From Fuerstiella sp. (GTDB lineage: Bacteria > Planctomycetota > Planctomycetia > Planctomycetales > Planctomycetaceae), in NCBI GenBank assembly GCA_022843805.1, contig JALHMY010000046.1, forward strand, positions 1-64,000: DNA of 64,000 nucleotides. The letters run 5' to 3'. Below the pieces are notes generated by a model. It was not told the DNA's origin and ran no database searches. It worked only from the letters and a program-made list of their open reading frames with translations. Below, one piece after another: positions 48,237 to 60,506 of this stretch. Each line of letters starts with the position of its first letter. Positions within the stretch are counted from its first letter, which is position 1. The translations under genes and the position numbers were made by a program.

Positions 48237-49451
48237 TCAGGGTTTCTGATTCACATACAGCTTCAGATTATGCGTCGCTCGACCACCGGCAACGATGTCC
48301 GGGCGGCCATCGCCGGTGAAGTCCGCCACCATCAGATCTTCCGTGGCCATGCCTCCTTCATCCACGACGTGTTTCTTCCAGTCGACTGCCACCTGATCGG
48401 TGCACTGATAGACGATCACACCAAATGTCTTTGGAGTGTCGCTGTGACCAAACACAATTTCCTCGCTGCCATCTCCATCGAGATCGGACGTCCACAACCC
48501 GTGTCCCCGCTGGAATCCGGAATCGATGACATGCCGGTTCCATGACTTTTTGTTATCCGAATTCTGAGTATAGACAGCAACACTGTGGCCGTGCATTGGT
48601 TCCACCGTGACAATATAGCGAAGTCCGTTCTTCAGTCTGCCGATCCTGACTTCGCCAGCCCCCTGCTGAGCTGGCAGGGTTCCGTCAGCACCGGTTGCAA
48701 GACGAGTTGCGTTCCACCCGTCTGAACCACGCTGCACCAGCGTCACGCCTTCCTCGCTGGCGGTGATTGTGTCAACTGAACCATTCTCGTCCATGTCAGC
48801 GTGCCAGTGATTGTGCATGCGATTCAGTTCTTCATTCAGTACTGACGTCGGCCAGCGTTCGGTAACCGGGTCTGGCGGGATTTCAAAGGCAGTCAGACGC
48901 ACTCCGTTTCCCACGGACTTATTCAGAGGTGAAATCACCAGCTGAGGTCGACCGGTGCCCAGTACATCGGCCCATCGGGCGCGATGCAGGGACAGTTCTG
49001 TGCCAATTGAGTAAACGTGCCATGGCTCGCTGAGCGAAGCGCCGCGTCGGATCCAGTGCAGAGTGCCGGACTTTGTCCATCCCGCGCCAATCGCAAAATC
49101 AATTTTCCCGTCTCCATCGATATCATGAGGAGCGATACACACGTTGTCGGGCGGTGTCTGATCGTGGATCATCACATGAGCGGTCCATGATGGGTTCTCA
49201 TACCACAGCACCCGATTTTCTGAAACCGCCACGATGTCAGGCTGCCCGTCATTATTGACATCAGCCATTGTTACCGCGTAACACACTTTGCCAATTTCTG
49301 CGTCGATCGTGTGAGCTTTGAATGTTGGAAATTCGTCGGCTGCGGCAAGAGCTGACAGGGTGGCTGCTGTGAATCCAAGAACAATTCGTGTGACTGAAAA
49401 CCTGTTGCATCGGAAAGTTGCTTCGGGACCAGGGCTGGCTGAGGTCTTCAT
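48237..49451 (-). CDS. Exported FG-GAP/VCBS-repeat protein
   Basis: A 404-residue secreted protein with a signal peptide ('IVLGFTAATLSALAAADE') and several FG-GAP/VCBS-type units with calcium-binding-like loops: 'ADVNNDGQPDIVAVSE', 'HDIDGDGKIDFAIGAG', 'ADMDENGSVDTITASE', 'SDLDGDGSEEIVFGHS' and 'ADFTGDGRPDIVAGGR'. They should fold into a beta propeller outside the cytoplasm. It starts three bases after the stop of the RND gene and is the last gene of the leftward operon from 54393. Confidence 0.87.
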   Translation of the reverse strand: MKTSASPGPEATFRCNRFSVTRIVLGFTAATLSALAAADEFPTFKAHTIDAEIGKVCYAVTMADVNNDGQPDIVAVSENRVLWYENPSWTAHVMIHDQTPPDNVCIAPHDIDGDGKIDFAIGAGWTKSGTLHWIRRGASLSEPWHVYSIGTELSLHRARWADVLGTGRPQLVISPLNKSVGNGVRLTAFEIPPDPVTERWPTSVLNEELNRMHNHWHADMDENGSVDTITASEEGVTLVQRGSDGWNATRLATGADGTLPAQQGAGEVRIGRLKNGLRYIVTVEPMHGHSVAVYTQNSDNKKSWNRHVIDSGFQRGHGLWTSDLDGDGSEEIVFGHSDTPKTFGVIVYQCTDQVAVDWKKHVVDEGGMATEDLMVADFTGDGRPDIVAGGRATHNLKLYVNQKP

Positions 49452-49454
49452 GGT

Positions 49455-51896
49455 TCACCTTTCAAAATATGCTCCGGCACGTGAAAGCAGCAGTGCTGGA
49501 AGTATAATCAAATCTCCAGCGAGGGCCAGAAGCAGCAGTACGGTCATCAGGATGGCGAATCGGCTGGTGGGCACAAAATCGCTGAATGCAAACACCATCA
49601 GGCCGAGACCGCAGGAGACTGACGTTTGAACCATGGCGTTGCCGCAGTGCAGAAAACTGTGCAGCACAGCCGTCTGCCTCGTTTGTCCCGATGCCATCGC
49701 GCGTCGAAAAAACGTCAGGAAGTGCAGAGTGTCATCGACAGCAATACCCAGAGCGATACTGGCCGTCATTACCGAACCAATATCGATTGGATGTCGAAAC
49801 CATCCCAGCATGCCGAACATCAGAACAATCGGAAAAATGTTGGAAACCATCGCAAGCAGGCCTGTGATCAGACCTCCTTCGAGTATTGTCATTGTCAGAG
49901 TAATGATCACGAGTGCCGAGAGCATGCTTTGAAACAAATCTGTCAGCAGCTGACGCTGAATCTGATGCACCAGCGGCATAATTCCTGTTGCCATAACAGA
50001 GCAGCCGAGCTGCTCCGGGGAGTTCGAACGGACTGTGTGCAGACATTCCTTCAGCGTTGCACCTGAGACTCTTTCGATTTCGCTCAGCATCGTGCCATAG
50101 TCAAGAGGTGCGAGAGAACTGCAGTGACCGGTGATTCTCCAGATTTCTCCATCTGATGACGATACAAGGACCTTTGCCGTTTCAAGTGCCGGTTTCACCT
50201 GTTGCAGGATTCTGTTGATTGCCGCGCCCCGCACTCGCTCCGGCATATCTTTGAGGGATGGCATCGGAGGAAAAAAAGTCATTGCCGATGTGGTCGACAG
50301 AATCTCGGGAATTTGCCGTATATTGCGGTTCAGCTTGTCAATCACTTCCAGTCGCTTGCGTGCAGGGATCGGACTGTCCGATTCAAAATGTACCAGCACT
50401 TCGATCGGCACAAGCGGACCAATATGTTGTTCCAGCCAGCGATAATCCTGCAGGATTCTGCTCTCCGGGGAAAACAGAGTCTCAATGCGAACCGAAGTGG
50501 TCACCTGTGGCAGGCCCACAGCAGCAATCAGAATCAGAATGGTGCCGGCAGTGACGACCGCTGTCGAATAATCACTCAGAAATTCGTAAAGTCGGTGCCA
50601 GACTGTGCGATCAGGAGAGTTGACCGACAGTTGTTTATCAGATTCTAACGTGGCGAAATGAGGCGTTTCGGATGTTGAATGGTCCTGGTTGGCCGTTGCC
50701 GTATGAATTCCCGCTCCGGACTCACGTCTTCGAGAGATCGGAATCAGCAGCAGTCCGCAGGGTACGAGTGTGAGTACCATTGCGGCTGTCAGTATAACGC
50801 CGATCGTTGCGTAAACTCCAAACAGTCGGATCGGCGTCAGCACACTAACCATAAGTGATGCCGTTCCCATGGCAGTCGTTGCTGCAGACAGTGTGCAGGG
50901 TAACCAGCCTTTCCTGAAGGCCTCCACAGCTGCCTCGCGCGATCCAATGGACTCATGGCAGTCGAAATAGTAGTTCATCAGGTGTATCCCGCCAGCCACG
51001 GCCAGAACCTGAACGAGCGGCGGAAGGATGATGAGCAGAGCACTCAGCGTTTCCCCGCTGTAGTCGATAATTGCGAGCGTCGCGGCCTGACAAAAAGCGG
51101 CAATTGAAAACACGAGAAGCGCGGCTTTGACTGACCGAAGTGACCACCAGCAGATCAGCAGGATGACTAACGCGGAGGGCACTGCAAAACTGGCGAGAGC
51201 GTTCTGACTGGCTTCGTCAACTGACAGGCCATCAATGACCGGGCCAGCCAGATGAATCTGTCCGTCAGGAACATCACAGCAGACAGTAATGCTGCGTCGA
51301 ATCAGCCGTACAAGTTCGGATCGCCGTTTCAGGCCATCTTCAGTGAAGATGATGACAAGGCAGGTGGACTCGCCATCAGGTCCAATCAGCGTCCCCTGCA
51401 GTCTGGCGACAGCAGAAGCCAGCGGCTGTAATCCGCGTGAAGGAATTTCGGATGATGCCTGCTGAAAATCTGCTGAATCACCGCGAGGCGAGACGAGGGA
51501 AGTGTCGGGAAATTTTGCGGCCGCTTCAGAATCTGAGTCGGATTCCGGAGGCAGTGTCATCTGACGCAGTGATTCTCTGCCGGAAACGACATGCCAGAAG
51601 CTGGGAGTTCCGTTCTTTTCATGGAACAGCGGCGAGTTTCGCCATGTCCGGACCAGTCGGTCAAGACGACTATCATTCCATTTGCAGCCAGTCCAGCTGA
51701 CAATTACGGCATCTCCCGGACCGAAAGCCTCCACGAAATGCTCGTACTGCATTCTTGCAGGAAACCGGGAATCGACCCAGTCGATCGGTGAGTTATTGTT
51801 GGACCGAAGGGCGTTTGCTGCTCCGGAAATGACGAAAGGCAGCGAAAACAGCAGATAGATCAGCAGTAATCGAATTCGAGAGAATGCTTTCTGCAC
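49455..51896 (-). CDS. RND-superfamily (MMPL-type) exporter
   Basis: An 813-residue membrane protein with two copies of the six-helix RND unit: a helix at the N-terminus, a large extracytoplasmic loop (about 30-235), five helices with 'ILPPLVQVLAVAGGIHLMNYYF', a second helix and loop (about 450-640), then 'IGSVMTASIALGIAVDDTLHFLTFF', the signature of MMPL/HpnN-like lipid exporters. Such proteins move hopanoids or other lipids with proton drive. GTG 51896 is supported by GGGAG eight bases upstream. It is 28 bp from the membrane methyltransferase gene and 3 bp from the FG-GAP gene. Confidence 0.87.
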   Translation of the reverse strand: MQKAFSRIRLLLIYLLFSLPFVISGAANALRSNNNSPIDWVDSRFPARMQYEHFVEAFGPGDAVIVSWTGCKWNDSRLDRLVRTWRNSPLFHEKNGTPSFWHVVSGRESLRQMTLPPESDSDSEAAAKFPDTSLVSPRGDSADFQQASSEIPSRGLQPLASAVARLQGTLIGPDGESTCLVIIFTEDGLKRRSELVRLIRRSITVCCDVPDGQIHLAGPVIDGLSVDEASQNALASFAVPSALVILLICWWSLRSVKAALLVFSIAAFCQAATLAIIDYSGETLSALLIILPPLVQVLAVAGGIHLMNYYFDCHESIGSREAAVEAFRKGWLPCTLSAATTAMGTASLMVSVLTPIRLFGVYATIGVILTAAMVLTLVPCGLLLIPISRRRESGAGIHTATANQDHSTSETPHFATLESDKQLSVNSPDRTVWHRLYEFLSDYSTAVVTAGTILILIAAVGLPQVTTSVRIETLFSPESRILQDYRWLEQHIGPLVPIEVLVHFESDSPIPARKRLEVIDKLNRNIRQIPEILSTTSAMTFFPPMPSLKDMPERVRGAAINRILQQVKPALETAKVLVSSSDGEIWRITGHCSSLAPLDYGTMLSEIERVSGATLKECLHTVRSNSPEQLGCSVMATGIMPLVHQIQRQLLTDLFQSMLSALVIITLTMTILEGGLITGLLAMVSNIFPIVLMFGMLGWFRHPIDIGSVMTASIALGIAVDDTLHFLTFFRRAMASGQTRQTAVLHSFLHCGNAMVQTSVSCGLGLMVFAFSDFVPTSRFAILMTVLLLLALAGDLIILPALLLSRAGAYFER

Positions 51897-51924
51897 AAAG
51901 TCAGCTCCCGTTGTGGGTCAGTTG

Positions 51925-52734
51925 TTATGCTGACTTGCGGCTAAACGCGTCATGCTGTGGAGTTAAGTATCGACATTCTTCGGTCTTTGGCGAATGCAGA
52001 CGGCCAAGAGGACCAAACGAAATCCCTGGATAGCCAGGGACACTCTGCTGGTAATGACGATAGGTATTTCCCAGGTAAAAGGCGAGTCGTCGATCCTTTA
52101 ATACGCTGCCCGTGAAGATGTAAACCGTCCAGATGGCGGTCAGCACCACGTGATCCATGGTCATACGCGGTGTGAACCAGATGAGTCCAAGAAAACTGAG
52201 ATACACTGGGTGTCTGAGCCAGCGATAGAGACCTGTCGCAACAAATTCGCGACGAGGCATCTTTGTACCCCGGAGCCAGAACTGCCACTGCGTCCAGCCA
52301 GTCTGATATCCGGCACCGGTCAGAGCCAGGCTGTAAATCAACATTCCCCACGAGCTGTAAAAACAGGCGACCACGGCAGTCTTCGCATTACCGCTGAGAT
52401 CCCAGACGGTGTGTGGATTACTTTGCCAGAAGTGAAACACCAGCATCAGGCTCATACATGTCACGGCGCAATAGAAAAGCCCGTAGAATTCGGGAATTAT
52501 CAGATGATTCAGGCGGCGTCGCGTGGCCGGATGCAGAAGAATACTGTGAGGAATGACAAATTGCATGGCCAGCAAAATGTCAGTCAGTAACCAGTTGGAT
52601 ATGAGTGTATTTGCAGTCTGCGGCTGTCCGCCAAATCGGAGGAAGCTAAACAGATAAACAACGGTTAGTAAAAAAAACGCCTGAGTGGCAATGCCGGCCG
52701 TAAAACCTGCAAGCCTCTTTCCAGTCCTGCTCAT
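51925..52734 (-). CDS. Integral membrane methyltransferase, NnrU/MddA-like
   Basis: A 269-residue protein with about six membrane helices. The C-terminal part, 'GLYRWLRHPVYLSFLGLIWFTPRMTMDHVVLTAIWTVYIFTGSVLKDRRLAFYLGNTYRHYQQSVPGYP', has the RHPxY...E/DRRL...YxxYxxxVP pattern of isoprenylcysteine methyltransferase-like enzymes. The N-terminal half with 'QFVIPHSILLHPATRRRLN' points to the MddA group (methanethiol S-methyltransferase). Methylation of another small or lipid thiol/hydroxyl is possible. ATG 52734 with AGGGAAG upstream is preferred over 52776, which would overlap the previous gene. Confidence 0.72.
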   Translation of the reverse strand: MSRTGKRLAGFTAGIATQAFFLLTVVYLFSFLRFGGQPQTANTLISNWLLTDILLAMQFVIPHSILLHPATRRRLNHLIIPEFYGLFYCAVTCMSLMLVFHFWQSNPHTVWDLSGNAKTAVVACFYSSWGMLIYSLALTGAGYQTGWTQWQFWLRGTKMPRREFVATGLYRWLRHPVYLSFLGLIWFTPRMTMDHVVLTAIWTVYIFTGSVLKDRRLAFYLGNTYRHYQQSVPGYPGISFGPLGRLHSPKTEECRYLTPQHDAFSRKSA

Positions 52735-52748
52735 CGCTTCCCTGCTGC

Positions 52749-53585
52749 TTAAGCTTTCTTTTCGGCAATGAAACATCCGTATTGCATTGCGCGTGTGTTG
52801 TAGGCGTCCAGAATTGTTTGAAATCTGTCAAGGAAAATCAGCTGCCCGCGATCGATGATTCGAGCAACTTTATGCATGGATGTGCTGCGCACCCGGTCTC
52901 GACAGATCTCCCATGTTCTGGAGACCTGATCGGTCCAGTCGTGAGTACTGACCATTGACAGGCCTGCATTCTGCATCCACGCTTTATAGTCGGCCGTTGT
53001 TCCGAGTGACGGGCAAAAGAAGCCTTCGCAGACATCGGCCACCAGCTGGCGACCGGTTTCATTCAGGGGTTCATCTCCCGCGAGCCATGCACAAATCGCG
53101 ATGCGCCCACCCGGCTTCAGCCATGACGCGGCACGCTGAAAAAACGCGGCCTTGTCAAACAGATGCTCCGTGCATTCGATACTCCAGACGACATCGAACG
53201 ATTCCACCGGCAGCTCAATTTTCTCGGCATCATCGCAAAGGAAGGTGGTTCGTCCGGATGTACCACTTGTCCATGATGCCATCGTCGCCCATCGTCGCTG
53301 AAATGAACTGATCGTGACACCTGTGACGTCACATTTCAGCAGAGATGCCATATGAATGGAAGACCCGCCCATCCCGCAGCCAACATCCAGAACCCGGTCA
53401 CCCTGTTTTACGCCGGCTTCCTTAACGACGCGTTCCGTTAGTTGCTGAGCTGCTACCCGGGGCGATTCACTGCCAGACCACAATCCGTGGTGAATGTGCC
53501 GACCCCACAGCAGCCGATAGAACAGAGTCGTGACATTGTAATGATTGCGAATCGTGTTCTTTTCGATACCCGGGCAGGAAATCAT
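52749..53585 (-). CDS. SAM-dependent methyltransferase, tocopherol/sterol-methyltransferase type
   Basis: A 278-residue class I methyltransferase. The opening 'NHYNVTTLFYRLLWGRHIHHGLWSGSESPRVAAQQL' is typical of gamma-tocopherol and related C-methyltransferases, followed by motif I 'VLDVGCGMGGSSIHMA', 'DAEKIELPVESFDVVWSIECTEHL' and 'LKPGGRIAICAWL'. It probably methylates a prenylated or alkylated ring or a small amine. ATG 53585 has GGAAGGG upstream; ATG 53606 is an alternative. It is 14 bp ahead of the membrane methyltransferase gene. Confidence 0.83.
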   Translation of the reverse strand: MISCPGIEKNTIRNHYNVTTLFYRLLWGRHIHHGLWSGSESPRVAAQQLTERVVKEAGVKQGDRVLDVGCGMGGSSIHMASLLKCDVTGVTISSFQRRWATMASWTSGTSGRTTFLCDDAEKIELPVESFDVVWSIECTEHLFDKAAFFQRAASWLKPGGRIAICAWLAGDEPLNETGRQLVADVCEGFFCPSLGTTADYKAWMQNAGLSMVSTHDWTDQVSRTWEICRDRVRSTSMHKVARIIDRGQLIFLDRFQTILDAYNTRAMQYGCFIAEKKA

Positions 53586-53646
53586 TGAGGACCCTTCCGT
53601 GATCATGAGATGACTAAGACGTTTGTTCGCGTTTCATTGCCGCTGA

Positions 53647-54393
53647 CTACAGCCCCTGTGGCCGTGGAATGCGAACATCGCCATAGATTTTCAGCTGATT
53701 GGTAACTCCGACGGCCCCCAGCGCTTTTCGAAACGGAGTAATCCCATATGCAGTCTGCATAATTGTGAAACTGCCTTTCACCCGTAACGTCTGTTCTTCT
53801 TCGATCACTTCCACAGGAAACTTCAGTGGATGGGTCACACCATGCAGGGTAAACTGCCCATCCAGCTGATACATCGGATGTCCCTCTTTGCTTTTTCGCG
53901 CCGTTTCAATCGCGGAAGTAATTTTGTAGGTGGCAGTCGGATATCGTCGAACATCCAGTACGCCGGGCCCCTTCATGTTTTCGTTGACCTGGCGACGGGT
54001 TGAGGCATCTGTTGATCCAGGCAGACCTGTGTATCGCCGCGCAGCATCTGTGTCCGCGTCAAAAGTCTGCATATCAAAGACAAACTCCCCTGCATTTTCC
54101 CCCGCACCGGGCCGCAGCCAGCCACTGCGGAATCGCCCCTCAATTCCATGGTCGTGTCCCAGTCCCGTCTTTCCCACAAAGATATAGACTCGACTTTGTT
54201 CAGGAAAAATCTCCGTGCCCTCAGGCGCTAAGGTCGTTGTTCCAGCAATGCTGTTCACACTTGTCGGCGGACGCTTCGTCTGCGCAGAAGATTCAGCTGA
54301 GGCAAAACTGGTCGACGCGAAGTATTGGAATATTGAAGTGACGCATACAGCAAACGCCGCAGCAAACACTACGACACGCCCATTTGATTTCAT
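53647..54393 (-). CDS. Exported YceI-family protein
   Basis: A 248-residue protein with an N-terminal export signal ('GRVVVFAAAFAVCVTSIFQYFASTSFASA') and a YceI lipocalin-like domain: 'SRVYIFVGKTGLGHDHGIEGRF', 'ARRYTGLPGSTDASTRRQVNENMKGPGVLDVRRYPTATYKI' and 'QLDGQFTLHGVTHPLKFPV'. YceI proteins bind isoprenoid or other long lipid chains in the periplasm. It is the first gene of the leftward five-gene operon; ATG 54393 gives the signal sequence, although the frame is open further upstream. Confidence 0.85.
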   Translation of the reverse strand: MKSNGRVVVFAAAFAVCVTSIFQYFASTSFASAESSAQTKRPPTSVNSIAGTTTLAPEGTEIFPEQSRVYIFVGKTGLGHDHGIEGRFRSGWLRPGAGENAGEFVFDMQTFDADTDAARRYTGLPGSTDASTRRQVNENMKGPGVLDVRRYPTATYKITSAIETARKSKEGHPMYQLDGQFTLHGVTHPLKFPVEVIEEEQTLRVKGSFTIMQTAYGITPFRKALGAVGVTNQLKIYGDVRIPRPQGL

Positions 54394-54581
54394 GAGACGA
54401 CAGATTGCTCTGCCTGGGGCGATCTCGTTCCGCCGCACATCTGACAACAGCGAATTACAGCCGGACTCGTGTAAGTGACTGGTCATCGAATTTATCCTTC
54501 GCCCGGATACCGGGTAACCCAAATCTGAATGTAAGCTTGACGTTCCGAGGCCGATCAGTGACACTCTATGGAGGGAGAAAT

Positions 54582-54598
54582 ACTATAGTTGTCGTAGT
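54582..54598. promoter_or_regulatory. Candidate BlaI-type operator
   Basis: ACTATAGTTGTCGTAGT is an imperfect dyad (ACTAta / cgTAGT) located 47 bp before the BlaI-family start, between the two divergent operons. BlaI/MecI/CopY repressors bind TACTACA-like dyads near their own promoters, so position and sequence fit autoregulation. The match is partial. Confidence 0.4.
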
Positions 54599-54645
54599 TG
54601 TGTCGAGATCGAAATCGGTGAATTCTGTTTTCCTGGAGAGGGTGA

Positions 54646-55020
54646 GTGACCGACTTCCGTTTAACAAGATACGAACTGGAGCTGATGGATGTGCTCTGGA
54701 ATACAGGAGAAGGCACTGTACAGACGGTTTGCGATGCTCTGGACCGTCAGCTGGCTTATACGACGGTCATGACAACCTTGAATTTGCTGGCGACAAAGAA
54801 GAAGGTCCTGGCTCGTGAGAAACAGGGCCGAGCCTTCGTATACCGACCGGTAATTTCGCGTGACGAAGCCTCGCGGTCAATCCTCACAGATCTGAAAGAC
54901 GTGTTGTTTGGTAACCGGCTGCCGTCCGTGGTGCTTAGCCTTTTGGCGGAATCGAAAACCAGTTCCCGCGATGCAATCATTCTGAAAGAAGCCCTGGAGA
55001 AACTGGAGCAGCAGGAATGA
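54646..55020 (+). CDS. BlaI/MecI-family transcriptional repressor
   Basis: A 124-residue winged-helix protein: 'LTRYELELMDVLWNTGEGTVQTVCDAL' and recognition region 'LAYTTVMTTLNLLATKKKVLAREKQGRAFVYRPVISRDEA', the region where family members are cleaved on induction, then a dimerisation tail. It should repress its own operon until the adjoining M56 protease relieves it. GTG 54646 is preceded by GGAGAGGG. The stop overlaps the M56 start (ATGA at 55017-55020). Confidence 0.92.
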   Translation: MTDFRLTRYELELMDVLWNTGEGTVQTVCDALDRQLAYTTVMTTLNLLATKKKVLAREKQGRAFVYRPVISRDEASRSILTDLKDVLFGNRLPSVVLSLLAESKTSSRDAIILKEALEKLEQQE

Positions 55021-56210
55021 ACTACGGATTTGCGGCAGAAATCCTGTTTTCTCTGACTCTTCAAAGCACATTGCTGCTCCTCATCACTCGATGGCTGGCA
55101 GGTCAGCAGTCAGACTGTCGTGTTCGCGATCGGTTGTGGAGCAGTTGCCATTTGCTCATTCTCTGTGCATCACTCACCGGTCTTCTGTTGCCGCATTTTC
55201 GCATCATGCCGGAACCTGCCTGGCCAGCCCGCTGGCTCGGAATGCCTGTTAGTCCCGATGGCTGGTGGGTCTGGAAAGTGGTGGTCTGGGTCTGGCTGAG
55301 CGGTGTGCTGATCCTTTTCGCAAGCGTGACGACATCTCTGATACATGCGGGTCGGCTCATTCGTCGTTCCGCGCCAGCTGACAGTCTTGATGCAGAGCTT
55401 CTTTCCCGAATCCAGCTGCGTTCATTGCGGATTCTTGTCAATTCAGAGGTGACCAGGCCCTTTTGCTGGCAGTTCCATCGTCCGGCAATTATTTTTCCCA
55501 GGTTTATGCTTTCGTTTCCACGCGAAGAATTAACGGTGATCCTGCTGCATGAAAGGGCTCATCTGATTGAACACCATCCGTTTCAGTTGTTTCTGCAGCG
55601 AATGGTCGAAATGATCTTTTGGTTCAATCCACTCACCTGGTTAGCATCAAGGGAGTCCGCATTACAGCGGGAGCTTGTCTGTGATCGGCAGTCGGTCTCA
55701 AGCCACCAGGACAAGCTTTGTCTGCTGAAAGGGCTTTACCGTCTCTCAACCGAAAACTCTGATGCACTGAAGCTGCCCGTTGGTCTGAGGTTCTCCGGAG
55801 AGAGCGAAGCACTCAGGCATCGAGTTGACCAGCTTCTGAACGGTTCGTCCGATCCACTGACCCCACTCACGACGGGGGCAACCGGGGTCGCGTATATTCG
55901 AATTCTGATCGCAATTGGAATGGTAATTGCTTTAACGGTTTGGTTTCCATTCGATCCGGCCGCCAGCGGTCGGGCTCGTTTCTCGCCATGGCCGTCTGCA
56001 GTTGCCACGGCACTCAAGGAGCTGGGCATCGTCGTTCGAGATTATGAAATTGATGCCCATCGTCATCGGCCTCACATTGTTTACCACAATGAAATGGACC
56101 ACAGTGAGCTTTTGCCCGGGCCATCAGAAAAAACACAGACATCCCAACACCAAACAGCGGGGTCCACTTCGTCTTCACTGGCTGTCAGCGAACAGTTTCA
56201 ATCACATTGA
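55017..56210 (+). CDS. M56-family (BlaR1/MecR1-like) membrane metalloprotease
   Basis: A 397-residue protein with about four membrane helices and the zinc-protease motif HERAH in 'LLHERAHLIEHHPFQLF', with 'ESALQRELVCDRQSV' supplying the third ligand region. It lacks the C-terminal penicillin-binding sensor domain of BlaR1; the last 80 residues after the final helix are of unknown type. It probably senses an envelope signal and leads to BlaI cleavage. It is coupled to the repressor by a 4-bp overlap. Confidence 0.88.
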   Translation: MNYGFAAEILFSLTLQSTLLLLITRWLAGQQSDCRVRDRLWSSCHLLILCASLTGLLLPHFRIMPEPAWPARWLGMPVSPDGWWVWKVVVWVWLSGVLILFASVTTSLIHAGRLIRRSAPADSLDAELLSRIQLRSLRILVNSEVTRPFCWQFHRPAIIFPRFMLSFPREELTVILLHERAHLIEHHPFQLFLQRMVEMIFWFNPLTWLASRESALQRELVCDRQSVSSHQDKLCLLKGLYRLSTENSDALKLPVGLRFSGESEALRHRVDQLLNGSSDPLTPLTTGATGVAYIRILIAIGMVIALTVWFPFDPAASGRARFSPWPSAVATALKELGIVVRDYEIDAHRHRPHIVYHNEMDHSELLPGPSEKTQTSQHQTAGSTSSSLAVSEQFQSH

Positions 56211-56329
56211 ATTCAAATACAGTTCTGATCATCATGAGAATCCGAAATACACGCAGGAATCTGCAGGCTGTTGCTTCATCGGCACCGACTTTGTTGACAC
56301 CGCTCCGACCAGTTCGACGAAACGCCGGC

Positions 56330-57229
56330 ATGTCCGAACGCTTTCAGACGAATGTCCGTCGAGCATTTACAGTGCTTGAACTGCTGGTCACGATGAGCCT
56401 GATTGTATTGTTGATTGGTCTGATTTTTCCGGCGATTCAGGTGGCTCGTGAGAGTTCACGCCAGTTACATTGCAGCAATAACCTCAGGCAGATTTCGCTG
56501 GCGCTGCAGAACCGCCACGATACGTTTGGGGCACTCCCGGCGGGCTGGACTGGTTTATCAGATCGACCAGTCCATGGGCCGGATGAAGATCAGACCGCGT
56601 GGGGATGGGCAGTCGACGTTCTGCCATTTTTTGAACAAAATGCGCTGCATGTGCAGATCGACCGATCAAGTCCTGTTTCGTCGTCGTCCAATGAGTTTGT
56701 ACGAGGACAGCGACCTGCCTTTCTGCTGTGTCCTTCCGATTCGGCAGTGCCCTTTTTTGACCTGTACGCGGGGACTGAAGTCCGCGGCGCGCACGGTGCA
56801 TCCGGTGATTCAGTCGGTGAGCCGAGAATTCTGGTTTCTCTGCCTCAATCCAACTACGTGGGCGTATTTGGAGTCTCTGACCCGGATGATGCGGGAGATC
56901 GTGCGGGAGAAGGTACTTTTATTGCAGAACGACCGATCTCTTTCCGTGATTTAACTCGCGGACTGAGCAATGTGGCAACGGTTGGGGAACGGACCGCCAG
57001 ACGGCTTCCCGCCACATGGCTGGGCGTTGATCTTCGAGGTGAAGATGCTCAGGCTCGACTCACCGGATTCGCCTTTCTGGGCCCGAACCGTATCGATGCA
57101 GATGAATGTGAACTGGACAGCCGGCATCATCAGAGCGTCAACATGGCGTTCGCCGACGGTCATGTGCGCAGGATTGCCAATGAAGTGGACAGGGTTGTCT
57201 ATCAGGGAATGGCAAAACGCAGTGAATAA
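56330..57229 (+). CDS. DUF1559 prepilin-like protein
   Basis: A 299-residue protein with a type IV prepilin-like N-terminus: basic stretch, then 'RRAFTVLELLVTMSLIVLLIGLIFPAIQVARESSRQLHCSNNLRQISLALQNRHDTFGALPAGW', the DUF1559 signature. The C-terminal 'HHQSVNMAFADGHVRRI' is also characteristic. Hundreds of these occur in planctomycete genomes; they are thought to form surface or pseudopilin structures. ATG 56330 places the prepilin motif correctly; longer starts (56234 and TTG 56207) are unlikely. It is 119 bp after the M56 gene. Confidence 0.9.
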   Translation: MSERFQTNVRRAFTVLELLVTMSLIVLLIGLIFPAIQVARESSRQLHCSNNLRQISLALQNRHDTFGALPAGWTGLSDRPVHGPDEDQTAWGWAVDVLPFFEQNALHVQIDRSSPVSSSSNEFVRGQRPAFLLCPSDSAVPFFDLYAGTEVRGAHGASGDSVGEPRILVSLPQSNYVGVFGVSDPDDAGDRAGEGTFIAERPISFRDLTRGLSNVATVGERTARRLPATWLGVDLRGEDAQARLTGFAFLGPNRIDADECELDSRHHQSVNMAFADGHVRRIANEVDRVVYQGMAKRSE

Positions 57230-57295
57230 TTCTGATCACTGTGAAGTCCTGCCCTCAACAATCGAGACGAACGATCCGGAGGGCATTTTTCTGCC

Positions 57296-58021
57296 ATGGA
57301 GTTGAATCAGCGTAATTTGCAGCCGGAACTGATGGATGATCCGAATCTGGATGCCTCGCTGCACGAGCATGCCCTGACCGGTCTGCGAACGGTGAATCGA
57401 TGGAGCCGAACGGATGCTGCAATCTGGAGTGCCGTTGATTCGTACCTGCTGCAGCAGCGCGAACAAAGAGATCCGGCTGTGCTCAGGGTTCTGGACATCG
57501 CCTGCGGAGGAGGGGATCAGGCACTTCGTCTGGGTCGCCGGATGCGGGCGGCCGGAATCCCAGGAGAAGTTCACGGCTGCGATATCAGCCCCACAGCCGT
57601 CCGTTTTGCCACAAAACAGGCCAGCTCAGAGAGTGCAGCCAATGTTCGATTTTTTGTCAGCGATGTGTTTAACACTCCGCTGCCACAGGATACGTATGAT
57701 GTCGTGATGTGTTCCCTGTTCCTGCATCACCTTACTGAACTGCAGGCCGTCCAGCTGCTGGAAATGATGTACCGCGCGGCTCGGCAGCTGGTGATCGTGG
57801 ATGATCTTCAGCGGACACTGTCCGGCTACTGGCTCGCCTGGATCGGATGTCGAATTTTGTCCCGTTCACAAATTGTGCACTGCGACGGACCGATGTCCGT
57901 GCAGGGGGCATTTACGATTTCAGAGGCTGTTGCACTTGCAAAGAAAGCCGGATGGGTCAACCCGGCGATACAGACTCACTGGCCACAAAGATTTCTGCTG
58001 ACGGGGAGGACATCGAAATGA
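57296..58021 (+). CDS. SAM-dependent methyltransferase of the type III PKS cluster
   Basis: A 241-residue class I methyltransferase: motif I 'VLDIACGGGDQALRLGRRM', 'GCDISPTAVRFA', 'FNTPLPQDTYDVVMCSLFLHHL'. The last residues overlap the next gene's start (ATGA at 58018-58021), so it is coupled to the FAD oxidoreductase and polyketide synthase. By context it likely methylates the polyketide product or a modified form of it. Confidence 0.87.
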   Translation: MELNQRNLQPELMDDPNLDASLHEHALTGLRTVNRWSRTDAAIWSAVDSYLLQQREQRDPAVLRVLDIACGGGDQALRLGRRMRAAGIPGEVHGCDISPTAVRFATKQASSESAANVRFFVSDVFNTPLPQDTYDVVMCSLFLHHLTELQAVQLLEMMYRAARQLVIVDDLQRTLSGYWLAWIGCRILSRSQIVHCDGPMSVQGAFTISEAVALAKKAGWVNPAIQTHWPQRFLLTGRTSK

Positions 58022-59358
58022 GACCCCTGCCTGCAGAGTGGTCTTCCGGTGATGTGCCGCGCTGTCAGGTGGCGGTCATTGGAGCGGGAGTTGCCGGAGC
58101 GACAGCTGCGCTGCTGAGTGCTCGCGCCGGCTATAGGACCGTGCTGATTGAAAAACAGAAATTCCCGAGGCAGAAAGTTTGTGGCTGCTGTCTGAATGCC
58201 CGGGCGATAGATCTGCTCAGTAAGCTGAATATCCAGTCTTATCTCGCTCCGTTTTCGAATGTCCCCATCACTGCAACTCGTTTTTATCTGGAAGGGCGAT
58301 CCGCTGTCGTCGAAGTGCCCAAAGGTCAGGCAGTCTCACGCCAGTTACTCGATAGTTCGCTCGTCGACGCAGCGAAGGCAGCCGGATGCGAGTTTATGGA
58401 ACAGGTCTCCGCTGTAGTCCTTCCTGATAAAAAATTTCTGAATGAGGAGTCCATGCCGGACCATGGTTCTTCGCTGAACAGTTCTTCGCTGAACCGCTCT
58501 TCCCTGAACAGTTCTTCGGTCGTTGCGGCTTCGGAATCACCGACGAAAAACAGCCGGCTGGCCGCTACCGAACATGACTGTCGGCTGCTCGAACTACGAT
58601 CGACAGGCTGTAGTAATTCGCCCGAATCGGTACGTCATATTCGGGCCGATGTGGTGCTGATCTGTGATGGACTCGGACAGACCAGTCTCAGGTATTTTCC
58701 TCGGCTGAAGTCGACAGCGGCGACAAATTCCCGAATTGGTCTTGGAGTAACGATTGCTCGAATGCCCGGCGACCGACAGTTTCGTGAAGGTGAAATTCAT
58801 ATGGCGGTCTCCAGACAGGGCTATGTGGGGACCGTTGTTCTGAGTGAAAGCGAACTGAACGTTGCGGCGGCAGTAGACGCGGTTTTCTTGCAGCAGCACA
58901 GGAATCCAGCGGACGCTCTCATCTCCATCTTTCGTGATGCCGGTGTCGCCCCGCCGGAAGGACTGGCGAATTCTCATGTCCGAGGGACCCTGCCGCTGAC
59001 CCAAACGACAGAATGTGTGGCAGACCAGCGATTGTTCCTTTTGGGAGATTCCGCTGGCTATGTTGAACCATTCACGGGAGAAGGGATGGCATGGGCGCTG
59101 ACAGCAGCCACTCGGATTCAGCCACTGATCGGGAAAGTGCTGTCGACGGGATGGACGGAGTCAGTCGCCGATGAATGGCAGCAAATCATCTTTCGGGATT
59201 GTGGCCGCCGTCAGCGAATTTGTCGTTTGCTGTCGGGCAGCCTGAGATTCCCGCTACTGCTCCATCCCATGCTGACTGCCTGTCGGATTTTTCCGGCGAT
59301 GACGAGGATGCTTGTGCGCCGCATGAACCAGATTTCAACAGGTCAGGAGTGGAAGTAA
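58018..59358 (+). CDS. FAD-dependent oxidoreductase (geranylgeranyl reductase/halogenase-like)
   Basis: A 446-residue flavoprotein with the dinucleotide motif 'VAVIGAGVAGATAALLSARAGYRTVLIEK', 'FPRQKVCGCCLNARAIDLL' (a GGR-type segment) and the second FAD motif 'LFLLGDSAGYVEPFTGEGMAWAL'. Such enzymes reduce double bonds or hydroxylate aromatic rings. A 15-bp repeat, three units at 58468-58512, encodes SSLN-type serine-rich repeats in a loop near residue 150. It overlaps the genes on both sides by 1-4 bases. Confidence 0.87.
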   Translation: MRPLPAEWSSGDVPRCQVAVIGAGVAGATAALLSARAGYRTVLIEKQKFPRQKVCGCCLNARAIDLLSKLNIQSYLAPFSNVPITATRFYLEGRSAVVEVPKGQAVSRQLLDSSLVDAAKAAGCEFMEQVSAVVLPDKKFLNEESMPDHGSSLNSSSLNRSSLNSSSVVAASESPTKNSRLAATEHDCRLLELRSTGCSNSPESVRHIRADVVLICDGLGQTSLRYFPRLKSTAATNSRIGLGVTIARMPGDRQFREGEIHMAVSRQGYVGTVVLSESELNVAAAVDAVFLQQHRNPADALISIFRDAGVAPPEGLANSHVRGTLPLTQTTECVADQRLFLLGDSAGYVEPFTGEGMAWALTAATRIQPLIGKVLSTGWTESVADEWQQIIFRDCGRRQRICRLLSGSLRFPLLLHPMLTACRIFPAMTRMLVRRMNQISTGQEWK

Positions 59359-60506
59359 TGGACTCATTTAGAATTCTCGGACTGGGTACAGCTCTGCCCT
59401 CACATTTTATTCATCAGTCTGAAGCTGCGGACTTTGCCGCAACATGCCTCGCCGGGATGGCTCAGGATCAGTCACGATCAGCCACACTGGTGCAGGCCCT
59501 GTATCGACGGTCTGGTGTTCAGACCCGACACAGCGTCGTTCTGAATTCTTCAACAAACTGCACGCCTGCCACTCAGGATTTCTACTGGTCTTCCGAGACG
59601 TCAGATGACATCGGACCGACTACGGAATCCCGCATGCAGCGTTACGAACAGGACGCACCTGGGCTGGCAGAGCTGGCCGTCGGAAGGGCACTGGAAAAAT
59701 CCGGAATTTCCCCCTCCGCCGTGACACACCTCGTCACGGTTTCCTGCAGTGGATTTTCTGCGCCGGGCGTGGATTTGCATCTGATTCGGGCGCATGGACT
59801 TTCTCCGGAAGTTTCCCGCACACACGTCGGATTCATGGGATGTCACGGTGCGTTGAACGGACTAAGAGTTGCCCGAGCATTCACAGCCGCCGATCCTGAC
59901 GCCGTTGTGATTGTTTGTGCCGTGGAGCTCTGTACTCTGCATCATCAATACGGCTGGAATCCTCAGGAAATCGTCGCCAATTCGCTGTTCGCCGATGGTG
60001 CAGCCGCAGTTGTTGGCTGTTCATCAGCAAATACCAGCCTCACCGCAACAATCTCCGACGATGCTAATGCAGATTCCATTCAGCTGATTGATAACTTTTC
60101 GTTCGTGATTCCGGACACCCAGGACATGATGACCTGGAAAATTGCTAACGCCGGCTTTCGGATGAGTCTGTCGCCGGAAGTCCCGGATGTTATTACTCGC
60201 TGTCTTCCTGCAGCTCTGGAAACGTTTCTGAAGCGTCATCAGCTGACTTGCCCGGAAATTTCCAGCTGGGCCATTCATCCGGGCGGTCCCCGAATTCTGA
60301 AAGCCTGTGCGGAAGTCGCCCGGCTAACAGAGCAGCAACTGGAGCCATCGGTCAGCGTGCTGGCTCAGTACGGCAACATGAGCTCTCCCACCGTGCTTTT
60401 CATCCTCGAAGAACTTCAGCGCCGAAATGCCGGTTTTCCCTGTGTGATGATGGGATTTGGTCCGGGATTGAACGTGGAAATTGCCCTGCTCAACGCTGGT
60501 TACTGA
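59358..60506 (+). CDS. Type III polyketide synthase
   Basis: A 382-residue chalcone/stilbene synthase-fold enzyme. The catalytic triad is visible: Cys162 (FMGCHGA), His307 (AIHPGGP) and Asn340 (YGNMSSPT). These enzymes extend an acyl-CoA starter with malonyl units and cyclise it into pyrones, resorcinols or phloroglucinols. The bacterial type with 'VSCSGFSAPGVD' often uses long acyl chains and gives alkylpyrones or phenolic lipids. ATG 59358 shares its A with the preceding TAA. The trio methyltransferase, flavoprotein, type III PKS parallels the phenolic-lipid operon srsABC of Streptomyces. Confidence 0.94.
   Translation: MDSFRILGLGTALPSHFIHQSEAADFAATCLAGMAQDQSRSATLVQALYRRSGVQTRHSVVLNSSTNCTPATQDFYWSSETSDDIGPTTESRMQRYEQDAPGLAELAVGRALEKSGISPSAVTHLVTVSCSGFSAPGVDLHLIRAHGLSPEVSRTHVGFMGCHGALNGLRVARAFTAADPDAVVIVCAVELCTLHHQYGWNPQEIVANSLFADGAAAVVGCSSANTSLTATISDDANADSIQLIDNFSFVIPDTQDMMTWKIANAGFRMSLSPEVPDVITRCLPAALETFLKRHQLTCPEISSWAIHPGGPRILKACAEVARLTEQQLEPSVSVLAQYGNMSSPTVLFILEELQRRNAGFPCVMMGFGPGLNVEIALLNAGY

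Follow-up and report, generated by a model that had tools for sequence, protein, structure and literature searches.

Planctomycetota carry a known operon for alkylresorcinol synthesis, in which genes for a methyltransferase, a flavoprotein, and a type III polyketide synthase (PKS) follow one another. The portions of Milke et al. (2024; PMC10896814) drawn on here report this trio operon in 58 strains. Several planctomycetal PKSs gave pentadecyl- and heptadecylresorcinols, and co-expression of the methyltransferase and oxidoreductase of G. maris gave one methyl group more. Genes beside the trio are said there to be conserved in close relatives only, and the function of the compounds “remains elusive”; a 2025 review, as excerpted (PMC12078418), still describes a three-gene cluster of unclear function. 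Here we analyze a trio locus of the planctomycete Fuerstiella sp. (GCA_022843805.1), using positions 1 to 64,000 of contig JALHMY010000046.1, part of a 9.2-Mb assembly. This whole stretch of 64,000 nucleotides is called the window. We show that, across Planctomycetota, genes for three further proteins are repeatedly found next to the trio: a YceI lipocalin, another methyltransferase (MT2), and a membrane protein resembling MddA and ICMT (MddA/ICMT-like). This is new relative to the statement on neighboring genes in PMC10896814.

By sequence, the methyltransferase–flavoprotein–type III PKS trio of the window is the planctomycetal alkylresorcinol (hierridin-like) operon of PMC10896814: the excerpts describe the same three genes in the same order, and the PKS catalytic residues are intact. 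The window differs in adding a conserved YceI–MT2–MddA/ICMT-like (–RND) module, and its lineage also adds genes for a BlaI repressor, an M56 protease, and a DUF1559 protein. The cyanobacterial hidABC hierridin clusters share the trio order and some hold a second methyltransferase; this likeness is one of gene order, and YceI and BlaI are unmentioned in the parts of PMC8086630 used here. The five-gene operon of ‘Saltatorellus ferox’ resembles the locus in having a lipid/isoprenoid-binding protein, two methyltransferases, and a type III PKS; however, the relevant passages of PMC10896814 name no flavoprotein, membrane methyltransferase, or RND protein, and place its PKS outside the HidC cluster. 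The locus extends a cluster type already known; the extension is genuine and conserved but does not amount to a new class. A preliminary description made from the DNA had known of no account of the combination. The trio, its product class, and the ‘Saltatorellus ferox’ operon had in fact been published in 2024 (PMC10896814, in the sections cited), while for the wider module and its BlaI site we found no description among open-licence PubMed Central papers.

The trio of the window lies on the forward strand. Its methyltransferase, MTa, in the HidA position (57296..58021, + strand), matches Methyltransf_25 of Pfam. The oxidoreductase in the HidB position (58018..59358, +) is predicted to bind flavin adenine dinucleotide and to resemble geranylgeranyl reductases (GGR-like); it falls in the FAD_binding_3/geranylgeranyl-reductase superfamily, with TIGR02032 at 101 bits, below the cut-off of 158.8. 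The type III PKS in the HidC position (59358..60506, +) matches the N-terminal chalcone/stilbene synthase domain (PF00195; 84.5 bits, cut-off 27), the single such match in the 9.2-Mb genome at E<=0.001, and its best PDB match is 4b0n (E 1.7e-47). The Cys, His, and Asn that we take to be the catalytic residues of type III PKSs are kept in 110 of 110 aligned rows, the window and near-copies counted. The three genes overlap as first described, by 4 bp at 58018 (ATGA, MTa and flavoprotein) and by 1 bp at 59358 (TAATG, flavoprotein and PKS).

The trio is linked to a conserved module across Planctomycetota

The two operons occur together far more often than chance would predict. In a first set of 119 genomes (our own and 118 relatives), the PKS is present in 72 and MT2 (E<1e-70) in 22, our own included. 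All 22 MT2 genomes have the PKS, compared with 50 of the 97 others (Fisher 3e-6), and homologues of the MddA-like protein, YceI, and less often the RND protein co-locate with the MT2 places. We fetched 80 stretches from this set: 70 with a PKS, leaving out PKS stretches for five of the 72 PKS genomes (G019, G025, G087, G098, and G110), and 10 that surround module genes located on separate contigs. The 70 PKS loci comprise 56 that are trio-like and 14 with a lone PKS. Module genes lie near (within 10 kb of) none of the 14 lone loci but at least one lies near 16 of the 56 trio-like loci (Fisher 0.017), and two or more near 12. This difference shows that the trio is often alone, while the module keeps to the trio.

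The same linkage is seen from the side of the module. Twenty MT2 relatives (alignment A1; 45-72% identical) were searched in named genomes, and the best 80 of 197 matches were kept. Among these MT2-seeded loci, the MddA-like protein is found at 71, YceI at 67, MTa at 52, the PKS at 51, the flavoprotein at 50, and the RND protein at 39. Many of the contigs are short; where the flanks are wide (at least 7 kb on each side, 36 loci), 33 have the PKS, the misses being L181, L182, and L210. The preliminary description had said that its view of the two operons would fall if they were unlinked in relatives, and this count shows them linked. For the 29 MT2 loci that lack an adjoining PKS, 15 genomes were followed up and all 15 have a PKS, with a weak match (E 1e-24) in G121, the genome of L210. 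Five of the 15 (L172, L181, L182, L207, and L216) are also in the 119-genome set. The two linkage counts are not independent, since 19 of the 80 named loci lie on contigs equal in length to contigs of the first set.

Gene order around the linked operons is variable. Depending on the genome, the arrangement of module and trio is head to head, colinear, or tail to tail; 34 different strings were recorded, some of which differ by truncated contigs alone. When mapped on a 100-row PKS tree, the extended state requires 21 changes against 33 in shuffles, and at least five changes are forced by well-supported branches. The tree comes from a short search with Shimodaira–Hasegawa-like approximate likelihood ratio test support, and contig ends truncate some of its ‘trio only’ rows. 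These changes, together with the many gene orders, indicate that the partnership has been repeatedly broken or rebuilt yet kept. Aeoliella straminimaris ICT_H6.2 has a complete head-to-head locus of seven genes (L164), and in Neorhodopirellula pilleata the module is found in L211 with the PKS elsewhere in the genome. Two copies of MT2 occur in Botrimarina colliarenosi Pla108: one adjoins the trio (L154), and the other belongs to a separate YceI–MT2–MddA-like–RND set (L157).

A count of neighboring families (MT2 in 19 sources, MddA-like in 16, YceI in 15) was dropped as evidence because it included module-seeded stretches; the linkage seen from the MT2 side is unaffected. One neighbor family, in 14 sources, is DUF1501-like by eye.

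Predicted functions of the module proteins

The module lies in the leftward operon. All eleven genes of the preliminary description are open frames at the positions given in this text, and family matches were found for them, the membrane protein falling below cut-offs. The leftward gaps given there, 61, 14, 28, and 3 bp, are reproduced when the ATG at 53585 is taken as the start of MT2 (its open frame runs from 53606) and 52734 as that of the MddA-like gene.

YceI (53647..54393, − strand) is predicted to be a secreted lipocalin and probably carries a lipid. It matches the Pfam YceI family (67.9 bits, cut-off 23.7), and its structural model, with a core predicted local distance difference test score (pLDDT) of mostly 95-98 over blocks, has a lipocalin-like barrel. 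The best Foldseek match is the polyisoprenoid-binding protein 1wub (E 2e-10); ranks 2-17 are all YceI-type, with BcnA next. Neither YceI nor the membrane protein had a PDB sequence match. Octaprenyl lipids or ubiquinone-8 have been detected in association with YceI proteins (PMC9113575, in part), and the modeled fold supports the earlier suggestion of a lipid binder. The BcnA/LcoA lipocalin system, which acts against lipid peroxyl radicals, is likewise built on YceI lipocalins of the envelope with possible hydrophobic ligands; in the excerpts of PMC9113575 it is tied to cytochrome b561, whereas the YceI of the window is tied to genes for phenolic-lipid synthesis.

MT2 (52749..53585, −) is by profile a general small-molecule methyltransferase, of the class I S-adenosylmethionine-dependent type and the CMAS/RebM-like superfamily. 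It matches only CMAS/Methyltransf_11 and general superfamily models, and its best PDB match, 3bus, is listed merely as ‘Methyltransferase’; the “tocopherol-type” label once given to it is not established by these matches.

The membrane methyltransferase-like protein (51925..52734, −) appears by sequence to be related to MddA. The MddA model is matched by 39 of 39 aligned relatives; the window protein reaches 114 bits, below the cut-off of 270. It also falls below the Pfam cut-offs for ICMT (21.2 against 24 bits) and NnrU (21.8 against 24.7). Its model (pLDDT 91) gives VIA-align Z scores of 11.2 for a sterol reductase and 10.5 and 9.6 for ICMT, a range in which helical models match by chance, and its Foldseek match to ICMT is weak (E 0.015).

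The RND/MMPL-family transporter (49455..51896, −; 813 amino acids) is a probable lipid exporter. It matches the Pfam MMPL profile (68.3 bits, cut-off 20.5) and has homologues at relatives’ loci, and its sole PDB sequence match is MmpL3 (E 4e-5). Scores stay below the curated cut-offs for HAE3 (116 against 351.9 bits) and for the HpnN hopanoid transporter (24.3 against 751.85 and 19.5 against 1100). Six of the 39 loci with an RND homologue hold only one of 30-34% identity on the other strand.

ABC/FtsX genes beside some clusters may replace the RND protein. In G084 (L078:10296-13596), an ABC ATPase and a large FtsX/MacB permease lie between the YceI and MddA-like genes, a position that an RND gene takes at other loci. 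ABC hits at 40-45% identity occur in L156, L161, L178, L180, and L183, and for ABC ATPases such identities are weak evidence.

A candidate BlaI operator in the shared control region

The two operons diverge from a common control region of 252 bp (54394..54645), a length that holds for the YceI ATG at 54393 and the BlaI GTG at 54646. Beyond it lie genes for a BlaI/Penicillinase_R repressor (54646..55020, +; Pfam Penicillinase_R 92.2 bits, cut-off 22.6), one of 12 such matches in the genome, and for an M56 membrane protease (55017..56210, +; Pfam 85.3 bits, cut-off 31). The protease has a HERAH (HExxH) motif, and M56 is the sole Pfam domain in its 397 amino acids. The pair resembles BlaI/BlaR1 (MecI/MecR1) in that a BlaI-type repressor gene overlaps an M56 protease gene, here through ATGA at 55017. 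It differs from BlaI/BlaR1 in its site, in the lack of a beta-lactamase among the annotated genes, and in its protease: the penicillin-sensor domain was not found on M56, the full BlaR1 model scoring 67.6 bits against a cut-off of 400 and over residues 84-275 only. BlaI/BlaR1 systems have a TACANNTGTA-type operator. The TACANNTGTA operator has 0 exact matches in the window, which holds another conserved site instead.

This site is a 30-bp block upstream of blaI (54579..54608, +) that is conserved in the window, G001, G008, and L159 amid dissimilar DNA. The four blocks are identical at 22-27 of 30 positions pairwise, and 0 of 300 shuffles is as good in each of the six pairs. In the window, the first base of a TTGAC −35-like element lies 42 bp ahead of the block; 61-65 bp separate TTGAC from the GTCGAGA end of the block at the four loci. 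G019 and L178 have a related site in opposite orientation, mutually identical at 22 of 30 positions (0/300 shuffles). Across the whole 9.2-Mb genome, the long site pattern occurs only once, even when 3 mismatches are allowed. None of the 11 remaining BlaI matches in this genome has a similar 30-bp block next to it: the best score there is 11.8 bits, versus 39.6-42.9 for the four sites used to build the scoring matrix. At L230, another BlaI of the same genome has different inverted repeats (TCTACTGTATAAACAGTAGA) ahead of it, which suggests that BlaI paralogues have distinct operators.

An 18-bp candidate BlaI operator within the block (54580-54597) co-occurs with close orthologues of BlaI. An 18-mer matrix was made from six sites (window, G001, G008, G019, L159, and L178), each of which scored above all 200 shuffles when left out. 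The site is present in at least one cluster promoter of 5/5 further genomes with a BlaI orthologue, defined post hoc as at least 57% identity. L180 and L166 have it ahead of YceI, G046 and G018 ahead of MTa, and G055 between the two genes. In G055, G018, and G046, blaI is on a separate contig. The YceI-side region of G046 has no site, and for the corresponding region of G018, 3 of 200 shuffles scored as high. By comparison, the site occurs in 3/53 genomes without a close BlaI orthologue (Fisher 1.2e-5). L166 and G046 were chosen after a pattern hit and so show only that a site-bearing genome also has the regulator; with unselected genomes only (G055, G018, and L180), the comparison is 3/3 versus 3/53 (Fisher 7e-4).

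The 53 genomes without an orthologue are 48 plus G003, G028, G059, L164, and G021, which has a 52% homologue. Several, L189 included, hold a 40-48% homologue; most are incomplete assemblies, and several of those without a site are near-copies of one another, such as L196/L213 and L202/L205. The 48-genome scan covered up to 450 bp with 60 shuffles, rather than the 350 bp and 200 shuffles originally planned. L145, a near-copy of G055, is site-positive and was excluded from the count. The test left out L158, L161, L190, L194, L206, L212, and L214, and also other loci, e.g., L186, L197, L199, L200, L208, and L220.

BlaI control is supported by these sequence comparisons for one group of lineages only, and in those lineages they suggest that both operons are BlaI targets. 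The BlaI/M56 control put forward in the preliminary description is thereby supported for such lineages, where the 18-bp site accompanies a BlaI orthologue, and is not supported as a general feature of the cluster. BlaI, M56, and DUF1559 were rejected as core components, being present at 4, 5, and 8 of the 80 MT2-seeded loci, respectively; most cluster carriers examined have no such BlaI regulator, and no BlaI orthologue was found in G003, which like G001 is of the same genus.

Three loci (L160, L177, and L189) show operator-like 18-mers upstream of YceI with no close BlaI orthologue detected, which counts against the pairing of site and regulator. Chance, missing contigs, or a diverged regulator may account for them.

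Proposed function of the extended locus

We consider it probable, with some reserve, that this is an extended alkylresorcinol (hierridin-like) locus whose product receives several methyl groups and reaches the envelope through a lipocalin and a pump, under BlaI/M56 control in the lineage of the window. Comparison of genomes provides the association of module and trio and the co-occurrence of site and BlaI; beyond them, we infer the reactions and the transport, the nature of the product, and the binding of BlaI and its signal. The type III PKS would join a long acyl starter with malonyl units to give a 5-alkylresorcinol, and the GGR-like flavoprotein would oxidize or hydroxylate the ring. MTa, MT2, and possibly the MddA/ICMT-like protein, at the membrane, would add two or three methyl groups. 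The RND/MMPL protein, or perhaps an ABC transporter in some relatives, would then extract the lipid from the inner membrane, and its passage through the periplasm would fall to the YceI lipocalin; such transport suggests that the product acts in the cell envelope. In the lineage of the window, both operons would be repressed by BlaI bound at the 18-bp site that separates them, and M56 presumably cleaves BlaI upon a signal. The most plausible role of the product may be that of a redox-active protectant, like a tocopherol or quinol. This antioxidant role is the boldest step, resting on the chemistry expected of a methylated phenol and on the precedent of BcnA.

Several observations weigh against this proposal. 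Forty of the 56 trio-like loci have no module nearby, some of them being cut by contig ends. Counting PKS-centered stretches only, MT2 and YceI are each found in 11 sources and the MddA-like protein in 9, against 13 for a DUF1501-like family and 12 for DUF1559; neighbor clustering adds little, since the module families are no commoner than two widespread planctomycete families. An RND homologue is present at only 39/80 loci, with none in the fetched stretch, often a short one, at 41/80. The Pirellula-type loci examined have no common adjoining exporter among ten flanking proteins from six loci, which include complex-I-like and iron-sulphur proteins, hydrolases, one FG-GAP protein, and one ABC-2/ABC pair. 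Finally, a PKS knockout of Stieleria maiorica showed normal growth and no ampicillin phenotype according to the passages of PMC10896814 used here, where the operon of that species is a PKS–methyltransferase pair without a flavoprotein gene.

The incomplete distribution of the pump also bears on a different function, in which the compound would serve as a hierridin-like allelochemical or antibiotic outside the cell, secreted by the RND protein and sequestered by YceI to protect the producer. The hierridin relationship and the link to cyanobacteria (PMC10896814), the exporters of other cyanobacterial type III PKS clusters (PMC8086630), and the capture of antibiotics by the YceI lipocalin BcnA (PMC5350466, PMC9113575) all fit it, as far as these sources are excerpted. 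Yet heterologously made alkylresorcinol cores had no antimicrobial effect in the same portions of PMC10896814, and at 41 of the 80 loci the fetched stretch holds no RND homologue. We regard this function as improbable.

A quinone-like electron carrier, serving respiration rather than the outer envelope, is quite unlikely. It would agree with the conversion of alkylresorcinols to alkylquinones in Streptomyces and Myxococcus and with the polyketide quinones that carry electrons in Mycobacterium (both from the excerpts of PMC10896814), and ubiquinone-8 is bound by YceI proteins (PMC9113575, in part). However, with a secreted lipocalin and a pump of the MMPL type, the inner membrane looks a less likely site of action, and the PKS is non-essential in S. 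maiorica, albeit in a PKS–methyltransferase pair only (PMC10896814, as excerpted).

There is equally little to recommend a leftward operon that serves another lipid, e.g., an isoprenoid quinone, and adjoins the trio only through common envelope-stress control: the 40/56 trio-like loci without a module nearby and the unlinked modules of some genomes (L181, L182) agree with it, but the PKS is present in 22/22 and 15/15 MT2 genomes (five genomes in both), and the linkage is kept where a genome has no close BlaI orthologue, which rules out shared BlaI control as its cause.

The extended alkylresorcinol locus can also be read in a wider form, which we consider doubtful though worth stating. Many Planctomycetota would make a polymethylated alkyl-hydroquinone or alkylresorcinol by type III PKS, a polyketide counterpart of tocopherol or ubiquinol that a dedicated YceI lipocalin and a lipid pump place in the envelope as an antioxidant; in one group, a beta-lactam-independent BlaI/M56 envelope sensor would induce it by acting on both operons, even from elsewhere in the genome. 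In either form, the conserved lipocalin, the extra methyltransferases, and often a lipid pump are pointers to alkylresorcinol function, and the finished compound probably carries more methyl groups than the cores produced to date and resides in the envelope. Named carriers such as Aeoliella straminimaris and Botrimarina colliarenosi make the idea testable, and the candidate BlaI site offers a handle on the inducing signal.

Neighboring genes

The FG-GAP gene (48237-49451, −), 3 bp past the RND gene, had been counted as part of the leftward operon. It was rejected as a member of the unit, with 0/80 occurrences at MT2-seeded loci and no match in the 80 stretches of the first set, and appears to be a lineage-specific addition. 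A different FG-GAP-repeat protein lies near the cluster at L218.

The DUF1559 prepilin-like protein (56207..57229, +; Pfam 139 bits) is coupled to M56 by a stop/start overlap (TTGA at 56207) and is followed after 66 bp by MTa. The short contig of G019 (L099) has BlaI/M56 but showed no DUF1559 gene next to them. The order BlaI–M56–DUF1559–MTa is also found in G001, G008, and L159, and a DUF1559 gene recurs near BlaI/M56 at clusters L062, L064, L159, L178, and L180.

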